A stretch of DNA of 64,000 nt from NCBI GenBank assembly GCA_017856235.1, contig JAFMFH010000002.1, positions 1 to 64,000 of the forward strand. Direction: 5' to 3'. Both the position numbers and the translations under genes were made by a program. Origin of the DNA: Flavobacteriaceae bacterium. GTDB taxonomy: Bacteria; Bacteroidota; Bacteroidia; Flavobacteriales; Flavobacteriaceae. Under the pieces are notes generated by a model that did not search any database, had not been told where the DNA came from, and saw only the letters and a program-made list of their open reading frames with translations. The stretch's first letter is position 1. Each line of letters begins with the position of its first letter. Of this stretch, positions 5,426 to 49,043 are shown piece after piece.

Positions 5426-6184
5426 ATGAGAGACAATAAAAAGATAGCACTAATAACTGGAGCAACTTCAGGAATTGGGGAATCAACGGCATATGAATTA
5501 GCCAATAAATATTCATTGATTCTATGTGGAAGAAATAAAGAAAAACTTGATAAACTAGAGGAGAATCTATCATCAACAACAAAAGTCATAACTCTCGAAT
5601 TTGATGTAAGGAACCATCAAGAAGTTTCTGAAAAAATTTCATCACTAGATAATTCATGGAAGAAAATTGAACTTCTTATCAATAATGCTGGTAATGCACA
5701 TGGACTTGATTTTATTTATGAAGGAGATATTGAGGATTGGGATATGATGATAGATACTAATGTAAAAGGGTTACTATATGTTACAAAATATGTGTTAGAT
5801 TCTATGATCAAAAATAATAGCGGACACATAATTAATATAGGTTCAATTGCTGGAAAAGAAGTATACCCTAAAGGAAATATTTACTGTGCTTCAAAATTTG
5901 CTGTAGATGCAATATCTCAGGGCATGCGAATTGACTTAAATAAATATAATATTAAAGTTTCACAGGTAAACCCTGGTCTTGTTGAGACTAATTTCTCAAT
6001 GGTTAGATTTAAAAATGATAAAAATAGATCTAAATCCGTATATGAAGGATTAAACCCTTTGATTGGAGATGATATTGCCAAGGTCATATCATTTATTGTA
6101 AACTGCCCAGATAATGTTAACATAAGTGACTTAACAGTCCTTGCAAAATCTCAGGCATCATCTACAGTATTAAATAGAAAATAG
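5426..6184 (+). CDS. Short-chain dehydrogenase/reductase, YdfG-like
   Basis: A 252-residue classical SDR. It has the nucleotide-binding TGATSGIGE motif at about residues 12-20, NNAG near residue 87, and the catalytic Ser-Tyr-Lys set in NIGSIAG...YCASKFAVDA (about residues 138-160). It most resembles the YdfG group, which oxidises small hydroxy acids such as serine and 3-hydroxypropionate with NADP; the actual substrate is not visible. It sits inside the glp operon, starting on the base after the glpF stop and overlapping the GDPD start by 1 bp. Confidence 0.85.
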   Translation: MRDNKKIALITGATSGIGESTAYELANKYSLILCGRNKEKLDKLEENLSSTTKVITLEFDVRNHQEVSEKISSLDNSWKKIELLINNAGNAHGLDFIYEGDIEDWDMMIDTNVKGLLYVTKYVLDSMIKNNSGHIINIGSIAGKEVYPKGNIYCASKFAVDAISQGMRIDLNKYNIKVSQVNPGLVETNFSMVRFKNDKNRSKSVYEGLNPLIGDDIAKVISFIVNCPDNVNISDLTVLAKSQASSTVLNRK

Positions 6185-6939
6185 TGCATAGAAATATATT
6201 ATTACTAATATTTACTACTTTTTTAGGTTCTTGTCTTTCTAATAAGGATGTAATAGTAGTAGGGCATAGAGGCGCTATGGGACACGCTTTAGAAAACACT
6301 GTTGAGTCAGTCAAAAAAGCAATTGAGCTAAATGTTGATGGAATCGAAATTGATGTATTCAAATCAAAAACTGGAGAGTTGGTAGTTTACCATGATCCAT
6401 TTTTAACTCGGTTATCAAATTCAAATGCATTTATTGAGCAAATTTCTTTAGACTCAATTAAAAAAGTAAAATTAGTAGGAGGATTATCCATACCAACACT
6501 AAATGAGATAATAGATATAATTCCTGAAAATATATTTTTAAATATTGAGCTTAAAGGAAAAAATACTGCACTTGGGACTAATAAAATTTTAACTGAACAT
6601 ATAAGGAAGTTTAATCTTCCTCCCTCAAAATTTATTATATCAAGTTTTAGATGGGATGAGTTGATAAACTTTAGAAATGCTAATAAGGATGTTCCAATTG
6701 CAATATTAGTAGATTCATTATATAAAATTGATGATGCAATTAAATTAGCAAGAAAAATTAATGCTATTGCTTTAAACCCAAATAATAAATTTTTAACAAA
6801 GCAAATAGTAAAAAAGATTCAGTCTAATAATATTCAAGTTCATCCCTACACAATTAATGATCCTTCAAATATAAAGAGGATGAAATCAATGGGAGTTGAT
6901 GCAATTATTACTGACTATCCAGAAAGAATAAATAAATAA
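6184..6939 (+). CDS. Glycerophosphodiester phosphodiesterase, lipoprotein
   Basis: A 251-residue GDPD-family TIM barrel that would hydrolyse deacylated phospholipids to glycerol 3-phosphate and an alcohol. Family motifs are clear: VVGHRGAMGHALENT at about residues 25-39, DGIEIDVFKSKTGELVVYHD, ELKGK for the metal site, and IITDYPE at the end. The signal peptide ends LGSC (Cys17), so the enzyme is probably a lipoprotein outside the cytoplasm. The start is GTG at 6184, overlapping the previous stop by 1 bp. Its placement suggests it supplies glycerol or glycerol 3-phosphate to glpK/glpD from phospholipid debris. Confidence 0.9.
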   Translation: MHRNILLLIFTTFLGSCLSNKDVIVVGHRGAMGHALENTVESVKKAIELNVDGIEIDVFKSKTGELVVYHDPFLTRLSNSNAFIEQISLDSIKKVKLVGGLSIPTLNEIIDIIPENIFLNIELKGKNTALGTNKILTEHIRKFNLPPSKFIISSFRWDELINFRNANKDVPIAILVDSLYKIDDAIKLARKINAIALNPNNKFLTKQIVKKIQSNNIQVHPYTINDPSNIKRMKSMGVDAIITDYPERINK

Positions 6940-6941
6940 TT

Positions 6942-7619
6942 ATGAAAATAACTTTTTTAGGTCATGCTACATTAGAGATAAAAATTAATGAATTCTCAAT
7001 TATTGTTGATCCATTTATTTCCGGAAATCCAATAGCATCAGATATTAATTTAGATGATTTAAAACCTGACTTTATATTGATCACTCATGCACATCAAGAT
7101 CACACTTTAGATGTTGAAAAACTTGCAAAGCAAAATGATTCAGTTATAGTTTCTAATTTTGAAATCGTAAATCATTTCCAGAATAAAGGTCTAAAAGGCC
7201 ACCCAATGAATCATGGTGGAAAATGGGATTTTCATTTTGGTGAAGTAAAGTATGTAAATGCGATTCATACTTCAACTTTTCCTGATGGATCAAATGGAGG
7301 ACAACCAGGAGGATTTATAATTTCTTCAAATAACAAGTCATTATATATAGCAGGGGATACTGCACTTACATATGACATGAAACTTATTCCACTTCAATAT
7401 AAATTAGATCTTGCGATCCTTCCAATTGGAGATAATTTTACAATGGGTTACAAAGACGCAATAATTGCCTCAGACTTTTTAAAATGTAATAAAATTTTAG
7501 GATATCATTTTGATACGTTTGGTTTAATTGAAATTGATCAGGCTAAGGCAATTAACGAGTTTAAAAGAGTTAAAAAAGAACTCATAATCATTAAACCTAT
7601 GGAACATATAACAATTTAA
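6942..7619 (+). CDS. UPF0173 metal-dependent hydrolase (metallo-beta-lactamase fold)
   Basis: A 225-residue cytoplasmic protein with the start MKITFLGHATLEI that typifies the UPF0173/YtkL family. The metal-binding HAHQDH motif is near residue 50, followed by HGGKWDF, the TSTFPDG stretch, GDTAL near residue 145 and a final GYHFDTFG. Length fits the family. The natural substrate of these hydrolases is not settled. It follows the GDPD by 2 bp and belongs to the same operon. Confidence 0.88.
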   Translation: MKITFLGHATLEIKINEFSIIVDPFISGNPIASDINLDDLKPDFILITHAHQDHTLDVEKLAKQNDSVIVSNFEIVNHFQNKGLKGHPMNHGGKWDFHFGEVKYVNAIHTSTFPDGSNGGQPGGFIISSNNKSLYIAGDTALTYDMKLIPLQYKLDLAILPIGDNFTMGYKDAIIASDFLKCNKILGYHFDTFGLIEIDQAKAINEFKRVKKELIIIKPMEHITI

Positions 7620-9374: not shown

Positions 9375-10331
9375 ATGAAAAGACGAAACTTTATTTTTGA
9401 TATATTTAGTGTTGGTATAGTATCTGCTATGTCAACTAAATTAAGAGCTGTAAACTTAAATTTTACCCCTATGGTAAGATCAATATCAACTTGGAAAACA
9501 ACTGAAGCAAATCAAAAAGCTGGTCAGATGCTAGATAAAGGTGAACATGCATTAGATGCTGCTGTCGCAGGTGTTGCAATCGAAGAAGAAAATCCAAAAA
9601 ATACAACTGTTGGTTATGGTGGTGCTCCTGATAGAACTGGAAAAGTTACGCTTGATGCATGTGTAATGAATCACCTTGGAGATTGCGGTTCTGTTGTTGC
9701 TGTAGAAAATATAGTAAATGTTGCAAGATTAGCTAAAGATGTAATGGAAAAAACACCACACGTAATGTTATCAGGAAAAGGTGCTGAAGAATTTGCAATT
9801 TCTCAGGGATATAAAAAAACAGATTTATTAACTGATCAATCTAAAAAAGAATGGGAAGAGTGGTTAAAAGATCAAGATTATAGACCTATTATAAATATTG
9901 AGAATCATGATACAATTGGAATGTTATGTATTGATAAAAATAATAACTTATCTGGAGCATGTACAACAAGCGGATTAGCATATAAAATGAAGGGTAGAGT
10001 TGGGGATTCCCCTATTATAGGTTCAGGTCTTTTCATTGATAACAAAATTGGAGGAGCAGTTGCGACAGGTTTAGGTGAAGAGGTTGTGAAAACTGTTGGA
10101 TCTTTTCTAGTCGTTGAGTTAATGAGACAAGGTTTATCACCTCAAGAGGCATGTGAAGAAGCTATTAAGAGAATAGTTTTAAACAATTCACAAAAAGATA
10201 AATTCCAAGTAGCTTATATAGCAATGAATAAAAAAGGTGAAGTAGGCTCTTATAGCATTGAACCAGGATTTACATACATGGATTATGTAAATGGAGAAAA
10301 TAAAGAGGTTTTTACTAAGTCTGAATTATAA
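9375..10331 (+). CDS. Glycosylasparaginase / isoaspartyl peptidase (Ntn-hydrolase)
   Basis: A 318-residue T2-family Ntn-hydrolase that would cleave N4-(GlcNAc)-Asn or isoaspartyl/asparagine bonds. The autoprocessing site is NHDTIGML, with Thr180 expected to become the N-terminal nucleophile of the beta chain. GRVGDSPIIGSG and GGAVATGLGEE form the substrate pocket. HDT-IGM followed by GRVGDSP matches the glycosylasparaginase branch. The N-terminus has KRRNF and a hydrophobic stretch, so export, possibly by Tat, is likely. The gene lies 4 bp after the M48 protease. Confidence 0.88.
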   Translation: MKRRNFIFDIFSVGIVSAMSTKLRAVNLNFTPMVRSISTWKTTEANQKAGQMLDKGEHALDAAVAGVAIEEENPKNTTVGYGGAPDRTGKVTLDACVMNHLGDCGSVVAVENIVNVARLAKDVMEKTPHVMLSGKGAEEFAISQGYKKTDLLTDQSKKEWEEWLKDQDYRPIINIENHDTIGMLCIDKNNNLSGACTTSGLAYKMKGRVGDSPIIGSGLFIDNKIGGAVATGLGEEVVKTVGSFLVVELMRQGLSPQEACEEAIKRIVLNNSQKDKFQVAYIAMNKKGEVGSYSIEPGFTYMDYVNGENKEVFTKSEL

Positions 10332-10332
10332 T

Positions 10333-11106
10333 TTAAGAAAAAATTGACTTCATCTTTTCCATTTCCTCTTCAGCTAGTGATGGATCAACTAAAATTCTAC
10401 CGCTATATTCGTCAGTGATTATTTTTTGTCTTGAGGCAATTTCCATTTGAACTTGAGGTGGAATAGTAAAATATGATCCACCAGATGCATTTCTCTCGAT
10501 AGGAACAATTGCTAGACCATTGTTTACATTTGACCTTATTCTTTTGTATGCAGATATCAAGTTATCTTCAATCTTTTTCTCAAATTCTTTAGACTTTTCT
10601 ATAAGAGTTTTTTCTTCTTTCTCAGTTTCTTTAAGAATTTCTTCTAATTCAAGTTTTTTATTTTTTAAATGAGATTTAAGATCTTTAATTTTATCTTTTA
10701 ATTCATTTATAACCGAAGACTTACTCTCTATAGTTTCATTATATTGTAAAATCTTCTTCTCAGATAGTTTTATTTCAAGCTCTTGAAACTCTTGCTCTTT
10801 AACTATCGCATTATATTCTCTATTATTTCTAACTTTTTTTAAGTCAGTTTCATATTTTTTATGATTGGCCTTAGAAGTTGTAATAGTATTCTCTTCTAGT
10901 TTAATTCCAGCTTCACTTTCTTTAATCTCGTTTTCATAACTTTCAAGTCTTTTATTTAATCCAGCTATTTCATTTTCGAGATCTTCCACTTCTAATGGTA
11001 GCTCACCTCTTATACTTCTTATTTGATCAATTCTTGAATCAATTAACTGAAGATCAAAAAGTGCTCTTAATTTTTCTTCTACTGATGTTTCAACTTTTTT
11101 TGCCAT
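10333..11106 (-). CDS. Coiled-coil protein of the CT398/zinc-ribbon family, ribbon cysteines missing
   Basis: A 257-residue protein with a long charged coiled coil (about residues 10-180) and a C-terminal segment that aligns with the C4 zinc ribbon of the CT398-like family (GGSYFTIPPQVQMEI ... TDEYSGRILVDPSLAEEE). The cysteines that normally frame IPPQ and GRILVD are Ser, Tyr and other residues here, so the ribbon should not bind zinc. It overlaps nothing but lies 1 bp before the upstream NIF3-like gene; the pairing with NIF3 is common in bacteria (family knowledge). Proposed roles for the family include flagellar or adaptor functions; none can be assigned here. Confidence 0.8.
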   Translation of the reverse strand: MAKKVETSVEEKLRALFDLQLIDSRIDQIRSIRGELPLEVEDLENEIAGLNKRLESYENEIKESEAGIKLEENTITTSKANHKKYETDLKKVRNNREYNAIVKEQEFQELEIKLSEKKILQYNETIESKSSVINELKDKIKDLKSHLKNKKLELEEILKETEKEEKTLIEKSKEFEKKIEDNLISAYKRIRSNVNNGLAIVPIERNASGGSYFTIPPQVQMEIASRQKIITDEYSGRILVDPSLAEEEMEKMKSIFS

Positions 11107-11107
11107 T

Positions 11108-11899
11108 TTAATAATAGTTTACAGGGTTAATATTTTGTTCGGACAAAAGGATCGTAAAATTAGGTAATTTTTTATTAAGAAATTCCTTAATAAACAATTT
11201 TATATGTTTTTCACTTTCATAATGTCCAATATCAATTAGTATAGCTTTATTCTCAGCTTCAAAGAAGTTATGATATTTCAAGTCTGAGGTAATAAAAGCG
11301 TCAACGTTTGACTCAATTGAATCTTTTATTGCAAAGCTTCCTGAACCAACTACAATTGAGACCTTGGAAATCTTTTTATTAAGTTTATTAGTATGTCTTA
11401 AATATTTTAAATTTAATTTATTTTTGAGGTAGTCAAAAAATGTAATTTCGTCCATAGGTTTTTTTAATTCTCCAATAGACCCCATACCTATTCTAATTTC
11501 ATTTAATTTTTCTTCTTTAGGAGCAAGAACAGAAATATTCTTTAAGCCAATTAAATCTGATAGCAGATAACTAATACCTTTTGGATGATTATCCAATGAA
11601 GTGTGAATTGCATATACTGAAATATTATTTTTAACTGCTTTAATAACAGATTTTTGAACGTAGTTATCATTAGTGATCTGTTTTAAACCACTAAAAATTA
11701 TTGGATGATAACTAACTATCAAATTACAATCCTTATTAATAGCCTCGTCTACTACATCTTCTGTAGTATCAAGAGTAACTAATATTGAAGTTAATTTTGA
11801 TTCTGGGTCACCTACAATAAGACCTACATTATCAAAATCTTCTGCTATAGAAGTTGGCATCCAATTGTCAATAATTTTTGCAATTTCAATAACTCTCAT
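11108..11899 (-). CDS. NIF3-like dinuclear metal-centre protein
   Basis: A 263-residue NIF3/YbgI-family protein. Visible metal-site motifs include DNVGLIVGD at the start, SYHPIIF (about residues 63-69), HTSLDNHPKG near residue 99, and DIGHYESEK near residue 224. Together these match the two-metal hexameric fold. The length is that of the compact form, without the extra PII-like insert that makes many Bacteroidota members about 365 residues. Biochemical role is unsettled; GTP cyclohydrolase-like and metallochaperone roles have been proposed. A TATATTTG box lies 17 bp upstream of the ATG. Confidence 0.88.
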   Translation of the reverse strand: MRVIEIAKIIDNWMPTSIAEDFDNVGLIVGDPESKLTSILVTLDTTEDVVDEAINKDCNLIVSYHPIIFSGLKQITNDNYVQKSVIKAVKNNISVYAIHTSLDNHPKGISYLLSDLIGLKNISVLAPKEEKLNEIRIGMGSIGELKKPMDEITFFDYLKNKLNLKYLRHTNKLNKKISKVSIVVGSGSFAIKDSIESNVDAFITSDLKYHNFFEAENKAILIDIGHYESEKHIKLFIKEFLNKKLPNFTILLSEQNINPVNYY

Positions 11900-11916
11900 T
11901 GGTATTAGATTGATTG

Positions 11917-11924
11917 CAAATATA
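11917..11924 (-). promoter_or_regulatory. -7 promoter box for the NIF3/coiled-coil pair
   Basis: Read on the minus strand this is TATATTTG, an exact match to the Bacteroidota -7 consensus TAnnTTTG. It places transcription start about 12 bases ahead of the ATG at 11899. No clear -33 TTTG is at standard spacing. Confidence 0.5.
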
Positions 11925-11949
11925 ATATTATCTTTTAGGTGATAAAAAA

Positions 11950-12966
11950 ATGAAGTTTCTGTTATATCCTTTATCGATTATATATGACTTAATTACAACT
12001 TTAAGAAACTTTTTGTTTGATATAGGTTTAATTAATTCAGTTCAGTACAAAATTCCAACTATTGGAGTTGGGAACTTGTCAACGGGAGGGACAGGAAAAT
12101 CAATGTTAGTTGATTATTTAATAGAACTTTTAAAAGTAAAATATACTTTAACTACCTTAAGTAGAGGGTATAATAGGGATACAAGTGGTTTTATTCAAGC
12201 TACTTCAAAATCATCGGCATATGAGATTGGAGATGAACCTTATCAATTTTACTCAAAACATCCTGAAATTAATGTTGTTGTTTGTGAGGATAGAAGAAAA
12301 GGAATGAAGTTAATTTTAAATAGTTTGCCTAATACTCAAATAAGTATTTGGGATGATATATTTCAACATAGATATGTCAAGCCTGGATTAATGCTATTAA
12401 CTACAACTTTTAAATACCCATATTACAAAGATGAAATTCTTCCTGTTGGTAATCTAAGAGAGAATAAAAATTCATCTAAAAGAGCTGATCTAATAATTGT
12501 TACCAAATGTCCAGAAGATTTGTCAAATAAAGATAAATTAGATTTTATAAAGAAATTAAATCCTGATGAAAACCAAAAAGTTTTTTTTAGTACTATTTCT
12601 TACAAAAAAACCCTAAAATCGGATGATTTAAGTATTCACATTGAAAATCTTAAAGAAGAGGAATTCACATTAGTAACTGGAATTGCAGATTCCTCTTATA
12701 TTGTTAAATACCTTGAGCATAAAAATCTAAAGTTCAAACACCTAAAATATTCAGATCATTATAATTTTAAAAAATCTTCAATTGATAAGATAGTTTCTGT
12801 TTCAATGAATAAAAAAATTATAACAACAGAAAAAGACTATGGCAGATTAAAGCCAAAAATAAATAGAGGTGATATATATTATTTAGAAGTATCAATTGAA
12901 TTTCCATATAATTTGAATCAAACAAGTTTTGATCAAGTAGTAAATGAGTTTGTAGAAAACTATTAA
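11950..12966 (+). CDS. lpxK: Tetraacyldisaccharide 4'-kinase
   Basis: A 338-residue membrane-associated kinase that phosphorylates the lipid A disaccharide precursor at the 4' position. The Walker A segment is [11 protein letters not shown] at residues 41-51, typical of Lpx[12 protein letters not shown] follows, then [13 protein letters not shown], and DDIFQHRY (usually DDGFQHR) near residue 138. An N-terminal hydrophobic region anchors it to the inner membrane. The window also carries waaA for Kdo transfer. The stop interlocks with the convergent lipA stop (TTAA). Confidence 0.93.
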
Positions 12967-13889
12967 TGAATGTGTTTGTGTGCTTTGTATGAAGATCTAA
13001 CAAGAGGACCACTTTCAACATGTCTAAAGCCCAAATCCTTACCTATAATTTCATATTCTTTAAACTCATCTGGTTTAATAAAGTCAACAACAGGTAGGTG
13101 TTTTTTTGAAGGCTGAAGATATTGACCTAGAGTAACTATATCAACTCCTACTCTTCTTAAGTCTTCAAGAGTTTCAATAACTTCCTCTTTCTTTTCACCT
13201 AAACCAAGCATTACACCTGATTTTGTTCTCGATATACCACTTTCTTTTAGATACTTCAAAACCTCTATACTCCTATCATATTTAGCTTGTATTCTTACCT
13301 CTTTTGTAAGTCTTCTAACAGTTTCTAGATTATGAGAAACAACTTCAGGAGCAACTTTGATTATTCTGTCAATATTATCAGTTTCTCCCTTAAAATCAGG
13401 AATTAAAGTTTCAATAGTTGTATTAGGATTTAGATCTCTAATTGCTTTAACAGTTTCTGCCCAAATAATGGAGCCACCGTCTTTTATATCATCTCTATCA
13501 ACAGATGTAATAACTGCATGTTTAACACCCATTATATTAATTGACCTGGCAACTTTAAAAGGTTCAAGCTCATCGACTGGCAATGGACTTCCAGTCTGGA
13601 CATTACAAAAACCACATGATCTGGTACAAATATTTCCTAATATCATAAAAGTAGCAGTACCTTCAGTCCAACATTCACCCATATTTGGGCAATTTCCGGA
13701 AACACATATTGTATGAAGTTTATTTTCCTCTACTGTTGATCTTAGTTGAGTATACTTTTTACCAATTGGAAGTTTAACTCTAATCCAATCAGGTTTTTTA
13801 GTCCTAATCTTTTCTTTGATGCTAGACTTTGGAAGATTTAGTTTTACCCACCCTTGGTTTACTGTTTTTATCTCAGACATATCATACAA
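12963..13889 (-). CDS. lipA: Lipoyl synthase (radical SAM)
   Basis: A 308-residue enzyme that inserts two sulfurs into octanoyl groups on lipoyl domains. It carries the auxiliary cluster cysteines [13 protein letters not shown] (Cys62, 67, 73) and the radical [11 protein letters not shown] (Cys88, 92, 95). The C-terminal VRSSYKA supplies the conserved serine ligand of the auxiliary cluster. An internal ATG three codons downstream (13880) is an equally good start. Its product is needed by dehydrogenases such as the pyruvate complex whose E1 beta gene lies at 27.2 kb. Confidence 0.95.
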
Positions 13890-13898
13890 AGATACAAA

Positions 13899-15113
13899 CT
13901 ATATAAACCTGGTCAAAATGTATCCAAATGCAAAAAAACTTAAAAATAAAATTCCAGTTACACTTAAAATCCTTAATGATTTAGAGGGTTTATGCTGATC
14001 AGGCATATTTTTACTAGTAACAAGTTTATAATTTAGTATGGCGTAAAATGGAGCAGTAATAAAGGATAATATAGTTGCTATTTCAACTAAGGCACCCATT
14101 TCAGATAGTAAGAAATAAAATATTAACATTGTGCCTATTGCTAATATAGATATCCAATGAAAATAGTAATTCTTATTAGAATTCTTTGTTAACAATTGGG
14201 TAGCTCTAGACATCGTTCTTGGAGATGCATCAAGAGTAGTAATTGTAGTACTAAGCATAGTAGTAAATGCACATATTGATATAATTAAATATAAATTGTC
14301 TCCTAAGTTTGAAGTATAAAGTTCTATAAGTTGACCTGCAAACACACCTCCACTAGTTGAAAAACTAATTCCTGAGTTATACATTACAAGTGCACCAAGA
14401 CTAATAAAACAGATACCTAAAAATACAGTTGCTATATATCCAACATTGAAATCAAACATACTATCTTTTTTTGTTATTTTTTGACTTTTAGTTTTTTCTA
14501 TTGCCCAAATAGAATGCCAAATAGAAATATCCAAAGGAGCTGGCATCCAACCCATAAATGCTACTAAAAATACCAAACCTGCACCTGAGGGAAATACCTG
14601 TTCAAAAGTGTATGTTTGTAAATTATTTAACGAAGCTATTCCAGTAGAAAAAATTGTACTAATTGCTAGAATTAAAATAATAATCTTAATCATCTTATCT
14701 AGAAGCTTATATTTACCAACTAATAAAATTAAGTAGCACGATACAGTTATAATTAAACTCCAAATAATCATGTTTTCAGTAAGGCCAAATAGACTTGAAG
14801 CAAGACCAGCGGTAACTATCGTAACGGCAGTCTGTATAGTAAACATTGTTAAAATGTTTAAAACAAAATATGCTATTAAAAAAAACCTACCAATTTTATA
14901 ATATCCATCTAATAAACTTTCTCCAGTTGCAATTGCATATCTAGGCCCATATTGGAAGAAAGGATATTTAAATAAATTTACTAAAACAAGTGCCCAAATT
15001 AATCCAAAACCAAAATCAGCCCCTGCTCTAGTTGATTGTACTAAATGAGAAACACCAATAGCAGCCCCAGCAAAAAGTAATCCTGGTCCAAGTTTTGAAA
15101 TAGCTTTAATCAT
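13899..15113 (-). CDS. Nramp-related transporter with altered metal site
   Basis: A 404-residue protein with about 11 transmembrane helices. The start KLGPGLLFAGAAIG and the ST-R-AGA-D-FGF pattern align with TM1 of Nramp Mn2+/Fe2+ transporters (GPG..., then the DPGN metal motif). Here the DPGN position reads GVSH (residues 20-23). In TM6 the MPHN motif reads MPAP (190-193), so the methionine ligand is kept but the Asp and Asn ligands are lost. Substrate is therefore uncertain; related non-canonical Nramp proteins carry other ions. It shares a 4-bp overlap with the upstream small Cys-rich gene, so the two are probably one operon. Confidence 0.82.
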   Translation of the reverse strand: MIKAISKLGPGLLFAGAAIGVSHLVQSTRAGADFGFGLIWALVLVNLFKYPFFQYGPRYAIATGESLLDGYYKIGRFFLIAYFVLNILTMFTIQTAVTIVTAGLASSLFGLTENMIIWSLIITVSCYLILLVGKYKLLDKMIKIIILILAISTIFSTGIASLNNLQTYTFEQVFPSGAGLVFLVAFMGWMPAPLDISIWHSIWAIEKTKSQKITKKDSMFDFNVGYIATVFLGICFISLGALVMYNSGISFSTSGGVFAGQLIELYTSNLGDNLYLIISICAFTTMLSTTITTLDASPRTMSRATQLLTKNSNKNYYFHWISILAIGTMLIFYFLLSEMGALVEIATILSFITAPFYAILNYKLVTSKNMPDQHKPSKSLRILSVTGILFLSFFAFGYILTRFI

Positions 15114-15307
15114 TTGGAGTCAATTGCACATTCAGAACTTGTTGGAATCTTACCACATATTCCGCATGGTTCATTAGAATTTTGAAGAAATGGGCTTTGA
15201 CTAGCACAAGTTCCTGAAAACTCTCCATTTTTTTTAATTATTAGCTTTATGGCTATTCCCGAAAATGCAATAGCAACTAATATAATTGAGATTAGAAATA
15301 TCTCCAT
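15110..15307 (-). CDS. Small membrane-anchored four-cysteine protein
   Basis: A 65-residue protein with one N-terminal transmembrane helix (about residues 3-24) and a short tail with Cys34, Cys48, Cys51 and Cys60, including a CGIC pair. The sequence type (GTCASQSPFL...CGxCGK) is one I associate with short 'membrane or secreted protein' entries in Flavobacteriia, often near redox or ion-transport genes (recollection, not verified). Its stop overlaps the Nramp-like start by 4 bp. A role in metal or redox handling for the transporter is an inference only. Confidence 0.65.
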   Translation of the reverse strand: MEIFLISIILVAIAFSGIAIKLIIKKNGEFSGTCASQSPFLQNSNEPCGICGKIPTSSECAIDSK

Positions 15308-15341
15308 TGGACAAAGCTATAAAAAAATTGTAATTTTAGTT

Positions 15342-15812
15342 GTGCTTAACTTAATTAACAATAACATTAAGTTCTCTAAGAAGTGGTTAATAATTTTAAT
15401 CATTAATTACTCCTGTACTAATAATCTTAAAGTTTCAGAATCTGAGATTTTATCAGCTTCTTCTTGGTCTAAAAATGATCAGCTACCAACCTTTGAGGAA
15501 TGTGTTGACCTTAATGGCGATGAAGGTTTATTATGTTTTAGAAATATAATTGAAACCGAAATGAATGAGTTTATCTCTGATAAGATTTTTCCATTAGATA
15601 CAACTCAGTATAGACTAACAATAAAGATAGATTCAGAGGGAAATTTTATTTTAGATGAATTATATCCTTACAATAGATTAGATGATGCGTATTTAAAAAT
15701 ATTAAAAGATGCTGTAAGTGGTATTAAAAAAGCTCTTCCTGCTATTAAAACAAACGTAGAAGAATTTGTTGAAGTTAAATTTAATTTGCCCTTTAGGTTT
15801 AATTATGAATAA
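15342..15812 (+). CDS. Conserved putative lipoprotein upstream of ruvC
   Basis: About 156 residues from a GTG at 15342. The frame runs open from 15249, but that start lies inside the divergent Cys-rich gene. From 15342 the product has a basic-hydrophobic leader ending NYSC, an imperfect lipobox; an ATT codon at 15369 would give a more typical short leader. The body has ECVDL...CFRNIIETEM and a C-terminal part resembling TonB-type C-terminal domains (LTIKIDSEGNFILDE ... VKFNLPFRF). Function unknown. It overlaps the ruvC start by 8 bp, so it is probably co-transcribed with ruvC. Confidence 0.6.
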   Translation: MLNLINNNIKFSKKWLIILIINYSCTNNLKVSESEILSASSWSKNDQLPTFEECVDLNGDEGLLCFRNIIETEMNEFISDKIFPLDTTQYRLTIKIDSEGNFILDELYPYNRLDDAYLKILKDAVSGIKKALPAIKTNVEEFVEVKFNLPFRFNYE

Positions 15813-16368
15813 TAAAGCTCCAGATAATACAATAATAATGGGAATAGATCCAGGAACTAATATTACTGGATTCGGAGTAATTAGAATAAAAAATAATCAA
15901 ATGAAACTTGTTGATCTAATTGAATTTAAACTGTCAAAAAAAAATGATCATAGCGAAAAACTTTCAGAAATTTTTAACAAGACTTCAGAGTTAATAAAAC
16001 TTCATAATCCTAATTTTGTAGCAATTGAATCTCCATTTTTTGGCAAAAATGTTCAATCTATGTTAAAATTGGGAAGAGCTCAAGGTGTATCAATGGCTGC
16101 AGCTCTTAATCTTGATATTCCAATTACAGAATATTCTCCAAAAAAAATTAAAATGGCAATTACAGGTAATGGTAACTCCTCTAAAGAGCAAGTTGCCAAA
16201 ATGCTAAGAACTATGTTAGATATAAAAGAAATGCCAAAAAATCTTGATTCTACTGATGGATTAGCAGCTGCAGTTTGCCATTATTTTAATTTTGGTAACT
16301 CTAACTCAAAGAAAGAATTTTCAAATTGGGCTAGTTATGTAAGTAAAAATCCTGACAAACTAGTCTAA
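15805..16368 (+). CDS. ruvC: Holliday junction resolvase RuvC
   Basis: A 187-residue endonuclease that cuts Holliday junctions after RuvAB branch migration. Catalytic acidic residues fit the family: Asp15 in MGIDPGTNITG, Glu75 in AIESPFF, and Asp148/Asp151 in LDSTDGLAAAVCHYF. LGRAQG lies at the usual place after the second motif. The frame extends upstream to 15766, but the ATG at 15805 puts the first motif at the normal distance. The stop interlocks with the convergent M20 peptidase stop (CTAA). Confidence 0.95.
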   Translation: MNNKAPDNTIIMGIDPGTNITGFGVIRIKNNQMKLVDLIEFKLSKKNDHSEKLSEIFNKTSELIKLHNPNFVAIESPFFGKNVQSMLKLGRAQGVSMAAALNLDIPITEYSPKKIKMAITGNGNSSKEQVAKMLRTMLDIKEMPKNLDSTDGLAAAVCHYFNFGNSNSKKEFSNWASYVSKNPDKLV

Positions 16369-17738
16369 TTCCCAAAATACTTATAGAAATTTTGAATTGT
16401 ATCAATTCCAATGAAGAAATTTTTTAATCCAAAGTTTTCATTTGGAGAGTGGATCGCATCACTGTCTAATCCAAATCCCATAAGCACTGTTTTTATTCCT
16501 AAAATACTCTCAAACATTGGCACAATCGGAATACTTCCTCCATCTTTTTGAGGTATTGGGTCTCTACCAAAACTGTCTTTATATGCATTTATAGCAGATT
16601 TATAACCTTTAAAATTTTCAGGAGTTACATATGGATTACCTCCATGATGAGTCAAAACTTCAACTGAAACAGATTTTGGAGCAATTTTTTTTATATGATC
16701 TTTAAATAGTTTACTTATTTTTTTCCAATCTTGATTGGGAACAAGTCTCATCGAAATTTTTGCACTTGCTTCTCTTGGAATTACAGTTTTAGATCCCTCG
16801 CCAGTATAACCTCCCCAGATCCCATTTACATCTAAAGTTGGTCTTATAGACTTTCTTTCCAAAGTAGTATAACCTAACTCTCCCTTTAAGAGCTCTAGAC
16901 CTAAAGATTTTTTAAAATTTTCTTCATCAAAATTTGATTTTTCCTCAATTAAAGCTCTACTTGATTTTTCAATTTCAAATACATCATCATAGAAACCTGG
17001 AATTGTAATCTTACCTTTATTATCGATAAGTGAGCTTATTATATCTGATAAGATATTTATTGGATTAGCCAATGTACCACCATATGTTCCTGAGTGAAGA
17101 TCTCTATTGGGTCCGGTAACTTTTAATTCCATGTAAGCTAATCCTCTCAATCCAACAGTTAAAGTTGGATTGTTTAGATTGCCAAGACCAGTATCTGAAA
17201 TTAAAATAACATCTGCGCCTAATTTATCTTTATTCTCTCTTAAAAAACTTTCAAGATTTTCACTTCCAATTTCTTCCTCTCCTTCAATCATAAACTTTAC
17301 ATTACAATTAAGTTTATTATTTTTTATTAATTGTTCGAAAGCTTTAAGATGCATAAATACTTGACCTTTATCATCACATGCACCTCTTGCAAATATTGCA
17401 CCATCTGGATGAATCTCAGTCTTTTTAATTACTGGATTAAATGGAGGATTTGTCCATAGCTCAATTGGATCAGGCGGCTGAACATCATAATGACCATAAA
17501 CTAGAATAGTAGGCATAGATTCATTCACTATTTTTTCTCCATATACAATTGGATGTCCATTAGTTGAATATATATAAGATGAATCACAACCTGATTTTAT
17601 AAGTTGTTTAGACAACCATTCAGCAGTCTTTTCCATAGTATCATTATATCTTGAATCAGCACTAATAGATGGTAATTCAAGAAATTCAAAAAGTTGATTT
17701 ATATAATTCTTTTTTTCCTTTTCAGATAATGTACTCAT
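16365..17738 (-). CDS. M20 family dipeptidase
   Basis: A 457-residue zinc dipeptidase of the M20 (carnosinase/PM20D-like) group. The first metal motif is YGHYDVQPPDP at about residue 81, followed by ARGACDDKGQ (bridging Asp), MIEGEEEIGSE (catalytic Glu pair) and ISDTG. The dimerisation domain contains GPNRDLHSGTYGG, and AIHSPNENF supplies the last metal ligand. No signal peptide is visible, so it should be cytoplasmic. The gene stands alone between ruvC and the tRNA. Confidence 0.92.
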   Translation of the reverse strand: MSTLSEKEKKNYINQLFEFLELPSISADSRYNDTMEKTAEWLSKQLIKSGCDSSYIYSTNGHPIVYGEKIVNESMPTILVYGHYDVQPPDPIELWTNPPFNPVIKKTEIHPDGAIFARGACDDKGQVFMHLKAFEQLIKNNKLNCNVKFMIEGEEEIGSENLESFLRENKDKLGADVILISDTGLGNLNNPTLTVGLRGLAYMELKVTGPNRDLHSGTYGGTLANPINILSDIISSLIDNKGKITIPGFYDDVFEIEKSSRALIEEKSNFDEENFKKSLGLELLKGELGYTTLERKSIRPTLDVNGIWGGYTGEGSKTVIPREASAKISMRLVPNQDWKKISKLFKDHIKKIAPKSVSVEVLTHHGGNPYVTPENFKGYKSAINAYKDSFGRDPIPQKDGGSIPIVPMFESILGIKTVLMGFGLDSDAIHSPNENFGLKNFFIGIDTIQNFYKYFGN

Positions 17739-17764
17739 AGTTAATTTATATTTAAAAACTTATT

Positions 17765-17772
17765 TATATTTG
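17765..17772 (+). promoter_or_regulatory. -7 promoter box for tRNA-Leu
   Basis: TATATTTG, an exact TAnnTTTG box, ends 10 bp before the mature tRNA 5' end, giving a start point a few bases ahead of the tRNA. No good TTTG is seen at -33. Confidence 0.55.
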
Positions 17773-17782
17773 TTCACCTTTT

Positions 17783-17864
17783 GCGGGTGTGGTGAAATTG
17801 GTAGACACGCTAGACTTAGGATCTAGTGCCTAACAGCTTGGGGGTTCGAGTCCCTTCACCCGCA
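17783..17864 (+). tRNA. tRNA-Leu (anticodon TAG)
   Basis: An 82-nt class II tRNA without encoded CCA. The acceptor stem GCGGGTG (17783-17789) pairs with CACCCGC (17857-17863), with discriminator A at 17864. The anticodon stem CTAGA / TCTAG encloses the loop CTTAGGA, giving anticodon TAG at 17817-17819 (reads CUN leucine codons). A long variable arm and a GGTTCGAGTCC T-arm are present. The T-rich tract directly after it probably ends transcription. Confidence 0.97.
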
Positions 17865-17917
17865 CTTTTTTCTTTTCTTTAACTCTAATATATTTCTAGT
17901 AATTAAAAGTTTAATTA

Positions 17918-19531
17918 TCATTCAGTTGGAGGATTATATCCAGAGCCTCTTACAAATCGTCCGGGGAAATTACCAGTATGATTTCCGTTTAACAATACCT
18001 GAATACCATTTACAAAAACATGTTCTACGCCTTCAGCAAATTGCAAAGGATCTTCAAAAGTTGCTTTATCCTGAATTCTATCTGGATCAAAAACAACAAT
18101 ATCTGCAAAATACCCAATCTTTAAATATCCTCTTTTTTTAATTCCAAGATTATCAGAAGGAAAACCAGATAATCTTCTAATTGCCTCTTCCATTGGAATT
18201 AATTTTTCTTCTCTAACATATTTCCCTAAAATTCTTGCAAAACTACCAAATGCTCTAGGATGAGTTATAAAATCTTTTGATATATCTGAATATGAACCTG
18301 CATCTGAATCAAATGAAACCCATGGAAGCATAATTTTTTTTCTGACATTATCTTCTGACATACTAAAATAAATACATTGTATTCTGCTTTCATCCTCAAT
18401 TATAAGATTTACAATTGTTTCTTCAGGAGTTTCACCTCTAAGTTCAGCAGCCTCAGCAATAGTCCTACCTCTATACTTATCAGACATAGACTGTTTATTA
18501 AACCCTACCATTAATATGTCTTCGGGTGGCTGTTCTGAAAGTTCTTTTCTAATATCCTTAAAAAGCCTTTCTCTTATATCCGGCCTTTTCATTCGGTTAA
18601 TCCAAGCTTGCCTTCCTCCTTCCTGAACCCAGGTTGGAATAACTCCAGTTAATCCAGTTGATGATGCTGGGTATGTATACATATCTGCAGTTATTTTTAG
18701 ACCACTTTCTCTTGCTTTTTCAACCTTCATAATAACTGAGTCTAATAGGTGCCAATTTGGTTTTCTTGAAGCTTTAAGGTGATATATTTGAGATGGTATA
18801 CTTGCTCTTTCAGCAATCTCAAGCAATTCATCTACTGCCTCTAAAACTCTCGAATCCTCATTTCTAATGTGAGATATATAACTTCCTCCATAAGATGATG
18901 CAATTTTTGATAATTCAACTAATTCATCTGTATCAGCATAATCTCCAGGAGCGTAGATTAATGATGATCCGATACCCATTGCTCCTTCCTCCATAGCAAT
19001 TTTTACAATATTTTTCATTGAATCCATTTCATACTCTGTAGCCTTTCTATTCTCAAAACCTATTTCTTGAATTCTAACTGTTGCTGCTCCTAGATATGAG
19101 GCAATATTTGTTGAAACTCCACTTTGTTCAAGTTCTTCCATGGCTTCTCCAAATCCAACAAAATTATTATTTTCTATTGATCCTCTTGGACCAGGAGATG
19201 TTCCTTCTCCAAAAACCTCAAGGGTAACACCTTGCTTGAGATCACTAAGAGATCTCCCATCTTGCATTAAAGTATTATATCCCCAACTAAGCATATTTAC
19301 AAAACCAGGTGAAATAATTTTATTAGAGGCATCTATTGTATCTTTTGCAATGAAATTCTGTTTTTTGCCAACATAAAAAATAGTATCATTTTTAACTGCA
19401 ATATTTCCAACAAAACCTTTTTTACCTGACCCATCATGTATAGTTCCACCCATAATTAATATATCAACATCATATGTATTATTTGTACAAGAAAGAGTTA
19501 AAAAAATAATTGCGAATAGAAATTTTTTCAT
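17918..19531 (-). CDS. D-aminoacylase-like amidohydrolase, lipoprotein, HxH motif lost
   Basis: A 537-residue amidohydrolase of the N-acyl-D-amino-acid deacylase type. The signal peptide ends LTLSC (Cys15), so it is probably a lipoprotein. Family features include DILIMGGTIHDGSG at residues 23-36, YISHIRNED and QIYHLKAS (the two later His ligands), and SFDSDAGSYS (catalytic Asp). The HxH motif expected in SPGFVNMLSWG reads Leu81-Ser-Trp83, so the first metal site is absent. It overlaps the start of the alkaline phosphatase gene's end by 4 bp on the same strand and follows it in one unit. Confidence 0.85.
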   Translation of the reverse strand: MKKFLFAIIFLTLSCTNNTYDVDILIMGGTIHDGSGKKGFVGNIAVKNDTIFYVGKKQNFIAKDTIDASNKIISPGFVNMLSWGYNTLMQDGRSLSDLKQGVTLEVFGEGTSPGPRGSIENNNFVGFGEAMEELEQSGVSTNIASYLGAATVRIQEIGFENRKATEYEMDSMKNIVKIAMEEGAMGIGSSLIYAPGDYADTDELVELSKIASSYGGSYISHIRNEDSRVLEAVDELLEIAERASIPSQIYHLKASRKPNWHLLDSVIMKVEKARESGLKITADMYTYPASSTGLTGVIPTWVQEGGRQAWINRMKRPDIRERLFKDIRKELSEQPPEDILMVGFNKQSMSDKYRGRTIAEAAELRGETPEETIVNLIIEDESRIQCIYFSMSEDNVRKKIMLPWVSFDSDAGSYSDISKDFITHPRAFGSFARILGKYVREEKLIPMEEAIRRLSGFPSDNLGIKKRGYLKIGYFADIVVFDPDRIQDKATFEDPLQFAEGVEHVFVNGIQVLLNGNHTGNFPGRFVRGSGYNPPTE

Positions 19532-47747: not shown

Positions 47748-49043
47748 ATGGATATAAATGTAATTATAGCTAGTACCATCGGGCTTTTTGTAATAACTCT
47801 TCTTTTAGTTACAATGCTTCTTGTTGCAAAAGAGAGACTTTTACCATCTGGTCCTGTAAAACTTGTAATAAATGGTCAGAAAGATGTAGAAGTAAGTTCT
47901 GGTGATACCTTGCTAACTACACTTGGAAATAATAAAATTTTTCTTCCGTCTGCATGTGGAGGAGGAGGAACTTGTGTGCAATGTAAATGTCAAGTATTAG
48001 AAGGAGGGGGTGAAATACTTCCAACTGAAGAACCTCATTTTACAAGAAAAGAAATATCTGAGGGTTGGAGGCTTGGATGTCAAGTTAAAGTTAAACAGGA
48101 CATGAAGATTGAAGTACCTGAAGAAGTCTTTGGTATAAAAAAATGGGAGGCTAAAGTTAAAAGTAATTTCAATGTTGCATCATTCATTAAGGAGTTTGTT
48201 ATAGAGATACCTGAAGAAATGGATTATAAAGCAGGAGGTTATATTCAGATTGAGATTCCAGAATGTGATATTGATTATAATGATATTGATATAACATCTC
48301 ATCCTAAAGAACATCCTGATGATCCTCAAAAATTTAAACTAGAATGGGATAATTTTAACTTATGGTCACTTAAGATGAAAAATTCAGAAACTGTTGAGAG
48401 AGCATATTCAATGGCATCATATCCTGCTGAGGGTAAGGAAATAATGCTTAATGTTAGAATTGCAACTCCCCCATGGGATGGTAAAAAAAATCAATGGATG
48501 TCAATTAATCCAGGTATAGCATCTTCATATATTTTCTCAAAAAAGCCTGGTGATACAGTTACAATATCCGGTCCTTATGGTGAATTCTTTATTAATGAAT
48601 CGGAAGCAGAGATGCTATATGTTGGTGGTGGTGCTGGAATGGCACCTATGAGATCACACTTATATGAGCTTTTTAGAACTATTAAAACAGGCAGAAAAGT
48701 AACCTTTTGGTATGGGGGTAGATCAAAAAGAGAGCTTTTTTATGTTGATCACTTCAGAGCTTTAGAAAAAGATTATCCAAACTTCAAGTTTTATATTGCT
48801 CTTTCAGAACCATTAAAAGAAGATAACTGGAAAGTTAAAGATTCTCTAGATGGACAAGGCGATGGTTTTGTCGGATTTATTCATCAAGTTGTTATTGACA
48901 ATTATCTTTCTAAACATGACTCGCCCGAAGATATTGAAGTCTATTTCTGTGGTCCTCCATTAATGAATCAAGCAGTTGAAAAGATGGCTGAAGATTTTGG
49001 AGTTCCTCCTGAGAATGTAAGGTTTGATGACTTTGGTGGTTGA
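47748..49043 (+). CDS. nqrF: Na+-NQR subunit F (NADH dehydrogenase, 2Fe-2S and FAD)
   Basis: A 431-residue subunit that takes electrons from NADH. One N-terminal helix (about residues 6-27) is followed by a [2Fe-2S] domain with Cys70, Cys76, Cys79 and Cys111 ([12 protein letters not shown] and LGCQVKV). FAD binds at [13 protein letters not shown], and NADH binding is around [15 protein letters not shown] and [13 protein letters not shown]. The C-terminal [11 protein letters not shown] and FDDFGG are typical. It overlaps apbE by 4 bp. Confidence 0.96.

Follow-up and report, generated by a model that had tools for sequence, protein, structure and literature searches.

What does a protein carry that is built like the manganese and iron importers of the Nramp family but sits on a separate, strongly conserved branch? 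We address this question for a gene in the window, by which we mean the whole analysed stretch of 64,000 nucleotides of a Flavobacteriaceae contig (JAFMFH010000002.1). The gene is encoded on the minus strand as a frame of 404 amino acids without internal stop, and its position had been given correctly by the initial annotation; frame 1 of the plus strand contains many stops across the same interval. The gene and the sites discussed below are:

13899..15113, minus strand: open reading frame of the Nramp-related carrier (P0001), 404 amino acids, ATG start, stop-free frame
15045..15056, minus strand: unwound TM1 motif G20-V21-S22-H23 in the DPGN position, located by MAFFT, hhalign and the structural offset
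14529..14552, minus strand: unwound TM6 motif G188-W-M-P-A-P-L-D195, positioned by the helix break of the model at 189-195 and by conservation
14217..14231, minus strand: conserved TM8 residues D295 and R299, each found in 122/122 aligned members

The protein matches the Pfam family Nramp (PF01566) with 53.4 bits at a gathering cut-off of 29.8, and no other Pfam family exceeds its cut-off for the 404-residue protein. The same family is matched by 40/40 members of our set A2 at E <= 0.01. The NCBIfam model NF037982 ('Nramp family divalent metal transporter') is matched with 51 bits at a cut-off of 50, over residues 9-207 only, and by 17/17 members of set A1 at E <= 0.01. This match supplies a name and not a demonstrated function. 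Since the protein lies on a separate branch and has a different central binding site, we consider the database name "divalent metal transporter" to be a guess. Among PDB sequences, the single protein matches only 10ky, the Nramp of Bacteroides fragilis, at E <= 1 (E 2.8e-6). A search of the PDB sequences with the clade profile returned nothing real, its single match being a splicing factor at E 2.7.

The fold was assessed with an AlphaFold2 model built on 40 aligned sequences (pLDDT 79.5, pTM 0.80), which was compared to known structures using Foldseek and VIA-align. The best match is the Deinococcus Nramp 6c3i, an entry of the G45R mutant (Z 37.9, 375 residues, rmsd 2.9), followed by the wild-type Deinococcus Nramp 8e60 (Z 37.1), EleNRMT (36.3), the B. 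fragilis Nramp (34.3), a YcsG model (33.8) and plant NRAT (33.7). The top 19 of the 50 structural matches listed are all Nramp-type entries (Z 32.6-37.9). Amino-acid carriers and other members of the APC superfamily (NSS, LAT, AdiC, KimA) rank below them with Z <= 31.6, although rank alone is not an exclusion. As the Nramp entries rank first, we assign the protein to the Nramp-type carriers with a LeuT fold. It thus shares PF01566, the LeuT fold and the broken helices TM1 and TM6 with the canonical Slc11/Nramp proteins (MntH A, B and C; DMT1), but it lacks DPGN, MPH and the TM3 Glu, has a structure-based identity of 11-17% to them and is separated from them by a strong branch.

In TM1, the alignment to the canonical proteins is free of gaps: with both MAFFT and hhalign, GPGLLFAGAAIGVSHLVQSTRAGA is placed on the canonical GP...DPGN...GA. 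The hhalign comparison to five canonical proteins has an E of 4.9e-11 and yields the same register. Furthermore, the structural match, which is given by its range ends only, opens with model residue 8 on residue 44 of the Deinococcus Nramp. The resulting offset of 36 pairs G20 with D56 and H23 with N59, so the canonical Asp and Asn are absent. The initial annotation had read GVSH (residues 20-23) at the DPGN position and had concluded that the metal-binding Asp and Asn are gone; both statements are supported by the three registers, with Gly20 at the Asp and His23 at the Asn. An intact DPGN elsewhere can be discounted, as DPG occurs nowhere in the whole protein. Of the 122 aligned members, the 121 with letters at these positions all have G20, S22 and H23. 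We name the clade SH after the Ser-His that ends its TM1 tetrapeptide; it belongs to PF01566 and lies outside canonical Slc11. The nearest rows in our trees were labelled GAGD and GSGE by us. At the fourth position of the TM1 motif, 21/21 SH rows have His, 8/8 GAGD rows Asp and 8/8 GSGE rows Glu, but the labels are defined by the letter at this position and these letters are thus no independent result. The TM3 Glu of the proton path is replaced by V97 in the family alignment: it is present in 14/14 canonical rows and in 0/21 SH rows, which have Val, Leu or Arg.

The TM6 site is also conserved and harder to align. MPAP occupies residues 190-193, as had been noted before, and MPH is absent from the entire protein sequence. 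W189, M190 and P191 are found in 122/122 aligned members, as is W203; at residue 195, 114 of the 122 have Asp and the other 8 have Glu. The model has its helix break at 189-195, and its confidence is lowest at 189-194, exactly at the TM6 site. In the hhalign alignment, M190-P191 falls on the Met-Pro of MPH only with a two-residue gap on either side, and the same gapping arises for a sister group in which the Met is replaced by Phe or Ala. In the MAFFT alignment of 72 family members, G188 lies on a conserved Gly, the alignment is gap-free to residue 194 and an extra residue follows at 195; here, A192 is on the canonical Met and P193 on the Pro, and Met190 is two residues off. The earlier statement that only the Met is kept thus holds in the hhalign register but not in the MAFFT register, where Ala192 takes the place of the Met. 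Since the TM6 register is ambiguous, the statement is not secure.

Could the protein simply be an Nramp copy in decay whose ligands have been lost? This reading would fit the missing canonical residues. However, the frame is open, and 57 columns are at least 97% conserved across 122 sequences, many of which are closely related, so that this is not a count of independent events. The 122 members comprise the window protein, the best 80 loci of at least 580 relatives and 41 others; identities go as low as about 37%, and Neisseria, Pseudoalteromonas and Photobacterium are represented. The invariant Ser22-His23, Trp189-Met190-Pro191, Asp295 and Arg299 cannot be put down to chance and show that a different site is under selection. 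Together with the at least 580 confirmed relatives, this makes decay extremely improbable.

To place the clade, we inferred three unrooted trees, in which the root is only a midpoint. Tree 1 contains 72 rows; in tree 2, six further sister rows replace six near-duplicates; and in tree 3, which was read for groups, the motif columns of TM1, TM6 and TM8 were removed. Tree 1 recovers the canonical DPGN proteins (branch support 100/100), the NRMT-like proteins (100/99), the MntG-type proteins (99/97) and SH (100/99), and tree 2 recovers the same groups. The groups are also found in tree 3, with supports of 100/98 for SH, 100/100 for canonical, 100/96 for NRMT and 98/94 for MntG. In trees 1 and 2, SH is placed together with GAGD and GSGE, and a branch of 100/99 separates them from the canonical, NRMT and MntG groups. 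The GSGE rows are split into two pieces, and the placement of three long single rows (L183, L203 and L204) is unsure. The ranking of profile comparisons from the SH clade agrees with the trees: E is 4.5e-39 for other SH proteins, 2.7e-20 for GSGE, 1.2e-11 for MntG, 4.9e-11 for canonical and 1.9e-7 for NRMT.

The proposal of a distinct clade is thus borne out, also when the motif columns are left out, and we are highly confident that the protein belongs to a separate clade with an altered site. The proposal that it lost the DPGN and MPHN ligands is not. The canonical rows form one side of a 100/100 branch that does not include the window protein, DPGN is confined to this one group, which joins NRMT and MntG, and the alternative site is strongly conserved. 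Furthermore, in a published tree rooted with NSS carriers, the Nramp-related proteins are paraphyletic to the canonical Nramps (PMC12873925), and with this rooting loss is the less likely direction. It is more likely that the SH lineage never had the DPGN ligands, which our unrooted trees alone cannot show.

Nramp-related proteins without DPGN and MPH have already been published, and the SH clade belongs to that kind. A figure of a 2026 preprint may include it among its groups; apart from the NRMT-like and MntG groups, this preprint calls all Nramp-related groups entirely uncharacterised (PMC12873925). No study of the GVSH/GWMP clade was found among the best matches listed in the open-licence full-text literature.

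Three Nramp-related systems are close enough for a comparison. The first is NRMT, a Mg2+ transporter with the signature DxxG in TM1 and TxxA/T in TM6 (PMC8806188). The fold of EleNRMT is similar to that of our model, and its canonical transition-metal residues are changed too. However, the NRMT-like rows keep the TM1 Asp (12/12) and an acid in TM3 (12/12), both of which are missing in the window protein, and the latter has GxxH instead of DxxG. The second is MntG/YcsG, which also has Gly at the place of the TM1 Asp and no MPH. In contrast to the SH clade, its motifs are GPGT and VPY/VGY, and its group (99/97) joins canonical and NRMT. MntG/YcsG is a hypothesised Mn2+ importer and falls into 'G-motif 3' of PMC12873925. 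The third comprises the uncharacterised GAGD and GSGE proteins, the nearest rows in the trees, which share the ionisable residue at TM1 position 4; GSGE also has an Asp opposite D195. Their TM6 reads GGVGG or GITGVGADE, as opposed to GWMPxPxD in SH.

A second Nramp-related gene is present in the same genome (contig C53:92701-93720). It is of the MntG/YcsG type with GPGT in TM1 and VPYN in TM6, and it is directly followed by a LamB/YcsF-like ORF, which we take to be PxpA-like. Two haloarchaeal relatives (L170 and L174) adjoin hydantoinase/oxoprolinase genes.

With the fold, clade and conserved alternative site calculated here, and the canonical TM1 Asp and Asn, the MPH and the TM3 Glu absent, we consider the window protein to be a putative secondary carrier with a LeuT fold that is functional and belongs to an uncharacterised Nramp-related clade. 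It would work by alternating access, as other LeuT-fold carriers do, and hold its substrate where TM1 and TM6 unwind. The ionisable TM1 residue is the His at position 4 of the tetrapeptide, in contrast to the Asp at position 1 in DPGN and NRMT proteins, and His23 would come near the TM6 segment G-W-M-P-x-P-x-(D/E). We infer that the protein is not an H+-coupled importer of Mn2+ or Fe2+; the initial proposal that another ion or a different solute is moved is plausible. As a weak suggestion, it might import a small organic solute such as an acid or an amino acid, possibly with Na+. We give this substrate, and the explanation as a whole, a probability of about 0.5.

The suggestion of an organic solute comes from the sister group. 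We annotated 13 plasmid loci with sister genes (L165-L169, L180, L181 and L205-L210), judging flanks of 2-5 kb by eye, and found catabolic enzymes next to the gene in four of them and siderophore-type genes in one:

L180: CoA transferases and a thiolase adjoining the sister gene
L169: an aldolase and a dehydrogenase adjoining the sister gene
L208: a UxaA hydrolase adjoining the sister gene
L206: an amidase adjoining the sister gene
L210: siderophore-type genes adjoining the sister gene, which point to iron

The remaining 8/13 loci have neither catabolic nor siderophore neighbours; one of them, L209, has an SLC13 permease downstream. The four loci with catabolic genes tip the balance slightly towards an organic solute and away from a metal. 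In the loci that we examined, no catabolic gene was linked to the window's own subgroup. Furthermore, Bacillus subtilis YcsG/MntG lies in a 5-oxoprolinase operon and yet its overexpression raises cellular Mn2+ (PMC10448178); catabolic linkage thus does not exclude a metal. The L208 locus is on a Rubrobacter plasmid, where two Nramp-related genes flank the UxaA-type hydrolase and a FadR/GntR regulator; dehydrogenases and cyclases are next door, and the cluster is sugar-acid-like.

An extension of the organic-solute reading, which we put forward tentatively and with less confidence, is that SH, GAGD and GSGE, which form one side of the deepest split in our trees, are all organic-solute carriers misnamed 'divalent metal transporters'. 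They would carry their ionisable TM1 residue (Asp, Glu or His) at position 4 and not at position 1, and the window protein would be their marine flavobacterial representative. The name 'divalent metal transporter' comes from automatic annotation, and with it the claim passes into genome models of marine bacteria. A conserved clade with its own motif that is present in cultured strains offers a route to the cargo of this fold before transition metals. If the substrate turned out to be ordinary Mn2+ or Fe2+, the interest would shrink to a variant binding site.

The main alternative, possible though somewhat doubtful, is an importer of divalent or transition metals with a rebuilt site, in which H23 (at the place of the Asn), M190 and D195 replace the Asp, Asn and Met. 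Like NRMT or the clade B Nramps, it would have another metal selectivity and would not use the canonical proton path. Metals are commonly bound by His, Met and Asp, and all three positions are kept (H23 in 121/121; M190 and Asp or Glu at 195 in 122/122). The characterised relatives move divalent cations, Mg2+ for NRMT (PMC8806188) and Mn2+ for YcsG (PMC10448178), and the sister gene of L210 lies beside siderophore-type genes. In addition, no DPGN Nramp was found in the gene's own genome (1.22 Mb, 92% complete). This genome has three PF01566 matches: the GPGT/MntG-type protein, the window protein and, below the cut-off, an ORF of 489 amino acids that looks by eye like another transporter family. 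On the other hand, it already has MntG-type and MgtE-family proteins, and the sister SH proteins lack the Met, with Phe or Ala in 4/4. Neither an M-box nor another metal riboswitch was found, a tRNA being the only Rfam match at E <= 1 in window positions 10000-18000; an M-box precedes some NRMT members only (PMC4072509).

It is improbable that the protein is a marine bacterial system for monovalent cations or for solutes coupled to Na+. The window itself encodes NqrF (47769-49040, 564.6 bits), of the Na+-translocating NADH:quinone reductase. Across 198 genomes, the carrier gene co-occurs with NqrF (both in 19, the gene only in 22, NqrF only in 25, neither in 132; Fisher p 9.4e-5), an association that is confounded by shared ancestry: NqrF above the cut-off is missing from 22 of the 41 carriers, among them all eight f22 g48 genomes. 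Ser and Thr residues in TM8, which might make a sodium site, are present in canonical Nramps too and thus do not discriminate.

The genomic neighbourhood suggests a different role, namely a transporter for lipoate metabolism (octanoate, lipoate, or sulfur or iron supply) in an operon with the adjacent gene:

12963..13889, minus strand: lipA, lipoyl synthase, with matches to Radical_SAM and LIAS_N

lipA lies 9 nt downstream of the carrier gene on the same strand (by the longest-ORF call), and the two are probably co-transcribed. Among the best 80 of at least 580 relatives, lipA is immediately downstream on the same strand in 72/80 loci and within the examined flanks in 75/80. In the same best 80 of at least 580, a small gene, sigma-70-like as judged by eye, lies immediately upstream in 67/80 loci, usually within a few bases, and overlaps its own preceding gene by 4-7 bases. 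This sigma gene forms our cluster 0 (loci L044-L113); in the window's closest relatives (L034-L043), it is gone and lipA is kept. Outside these loci, the linkage dissolves. In 18 further genome stretches, the order sigma gene, carrier, lipA was found only in L130 and L131, both from the window's family; lipA is not adjacent to the carrier in other groups and is unlinked in 16/18 stretches. Conversely, lipA occurs without the carrier next door in 13/13 genomes of the family (the carrier gene being absent in 9 and elsewhere in 4), and in 3 of these the sigma gene is still beside lipA. The order is thus inherited within a single lineage and is not a fixed partnership, which led us to reject the lipoate link. 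Furthermore, LipB is encoded in the genome, which makes internal synthesis of lipoate probable. We consider a role in lipoate metabolism very unlikely.

The 18 further stretches have no partner in common (HlyIII, DUF2911, DUF218, TatD, SRP54-type GTPase, Hsp70 and OmpA were seen, with 10 neighbouring proteins tested against Pfam) and thus give no functional clue. A DUF2911-like gene, of which one member was tested against Pfam, lies near the SH gene in 7/18 stretches from two family codes (L114, L115, L116, L120, L121, L127 and L128). Upstream of the carrier in the window is a divergent ORF of 187 amino acids (15249-15812) that has no Pfam match at E <= 1e-4; relatives of it (cluster 12) are found, in addition to the window, in 20/80 loci, again among the best 80 of at least 580.

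Lastly, we analysed the distribution of the gene. A near full-length relative with at least 37% identity is present in 41/198 genomes sampled from the phylum, and any match at E <= 0.001 in 63/198, the other 22 being weaker. In the window's family (f1), 10/19 genomes are carriers and all 9 non-carriers belong to one genus code; in a second family (f22), 25/25 genomes carry the gene. The named scan confirmed at least 580 relatives, of which the best 80 were retained; the titles of these 80 are nearly all Flavobacteriaceae, Flavobacteriales, Bacteroidetes or genera thereof. The closest named records among the matches listed are uncultured Bacteroidetes genomes, at most 94% identical, which we presume from their titles to be marine. 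By record title, the carriers include cultured Polaribacter, Tenacibaculum and Winogradskyella strains. An SH-clade protein is also encoded in records of Neisseria gonorrhoeae that are filed as plasmids (L162, about 5986-7200); given their size of 2.17 Mb, these records are probably chromosomes. In Neisseria, the frame of the carrier gene is overlapped by a longer antisense frame, and a gene that looks by eye like lysyl-tRNA synthetase lies a short way downstream.
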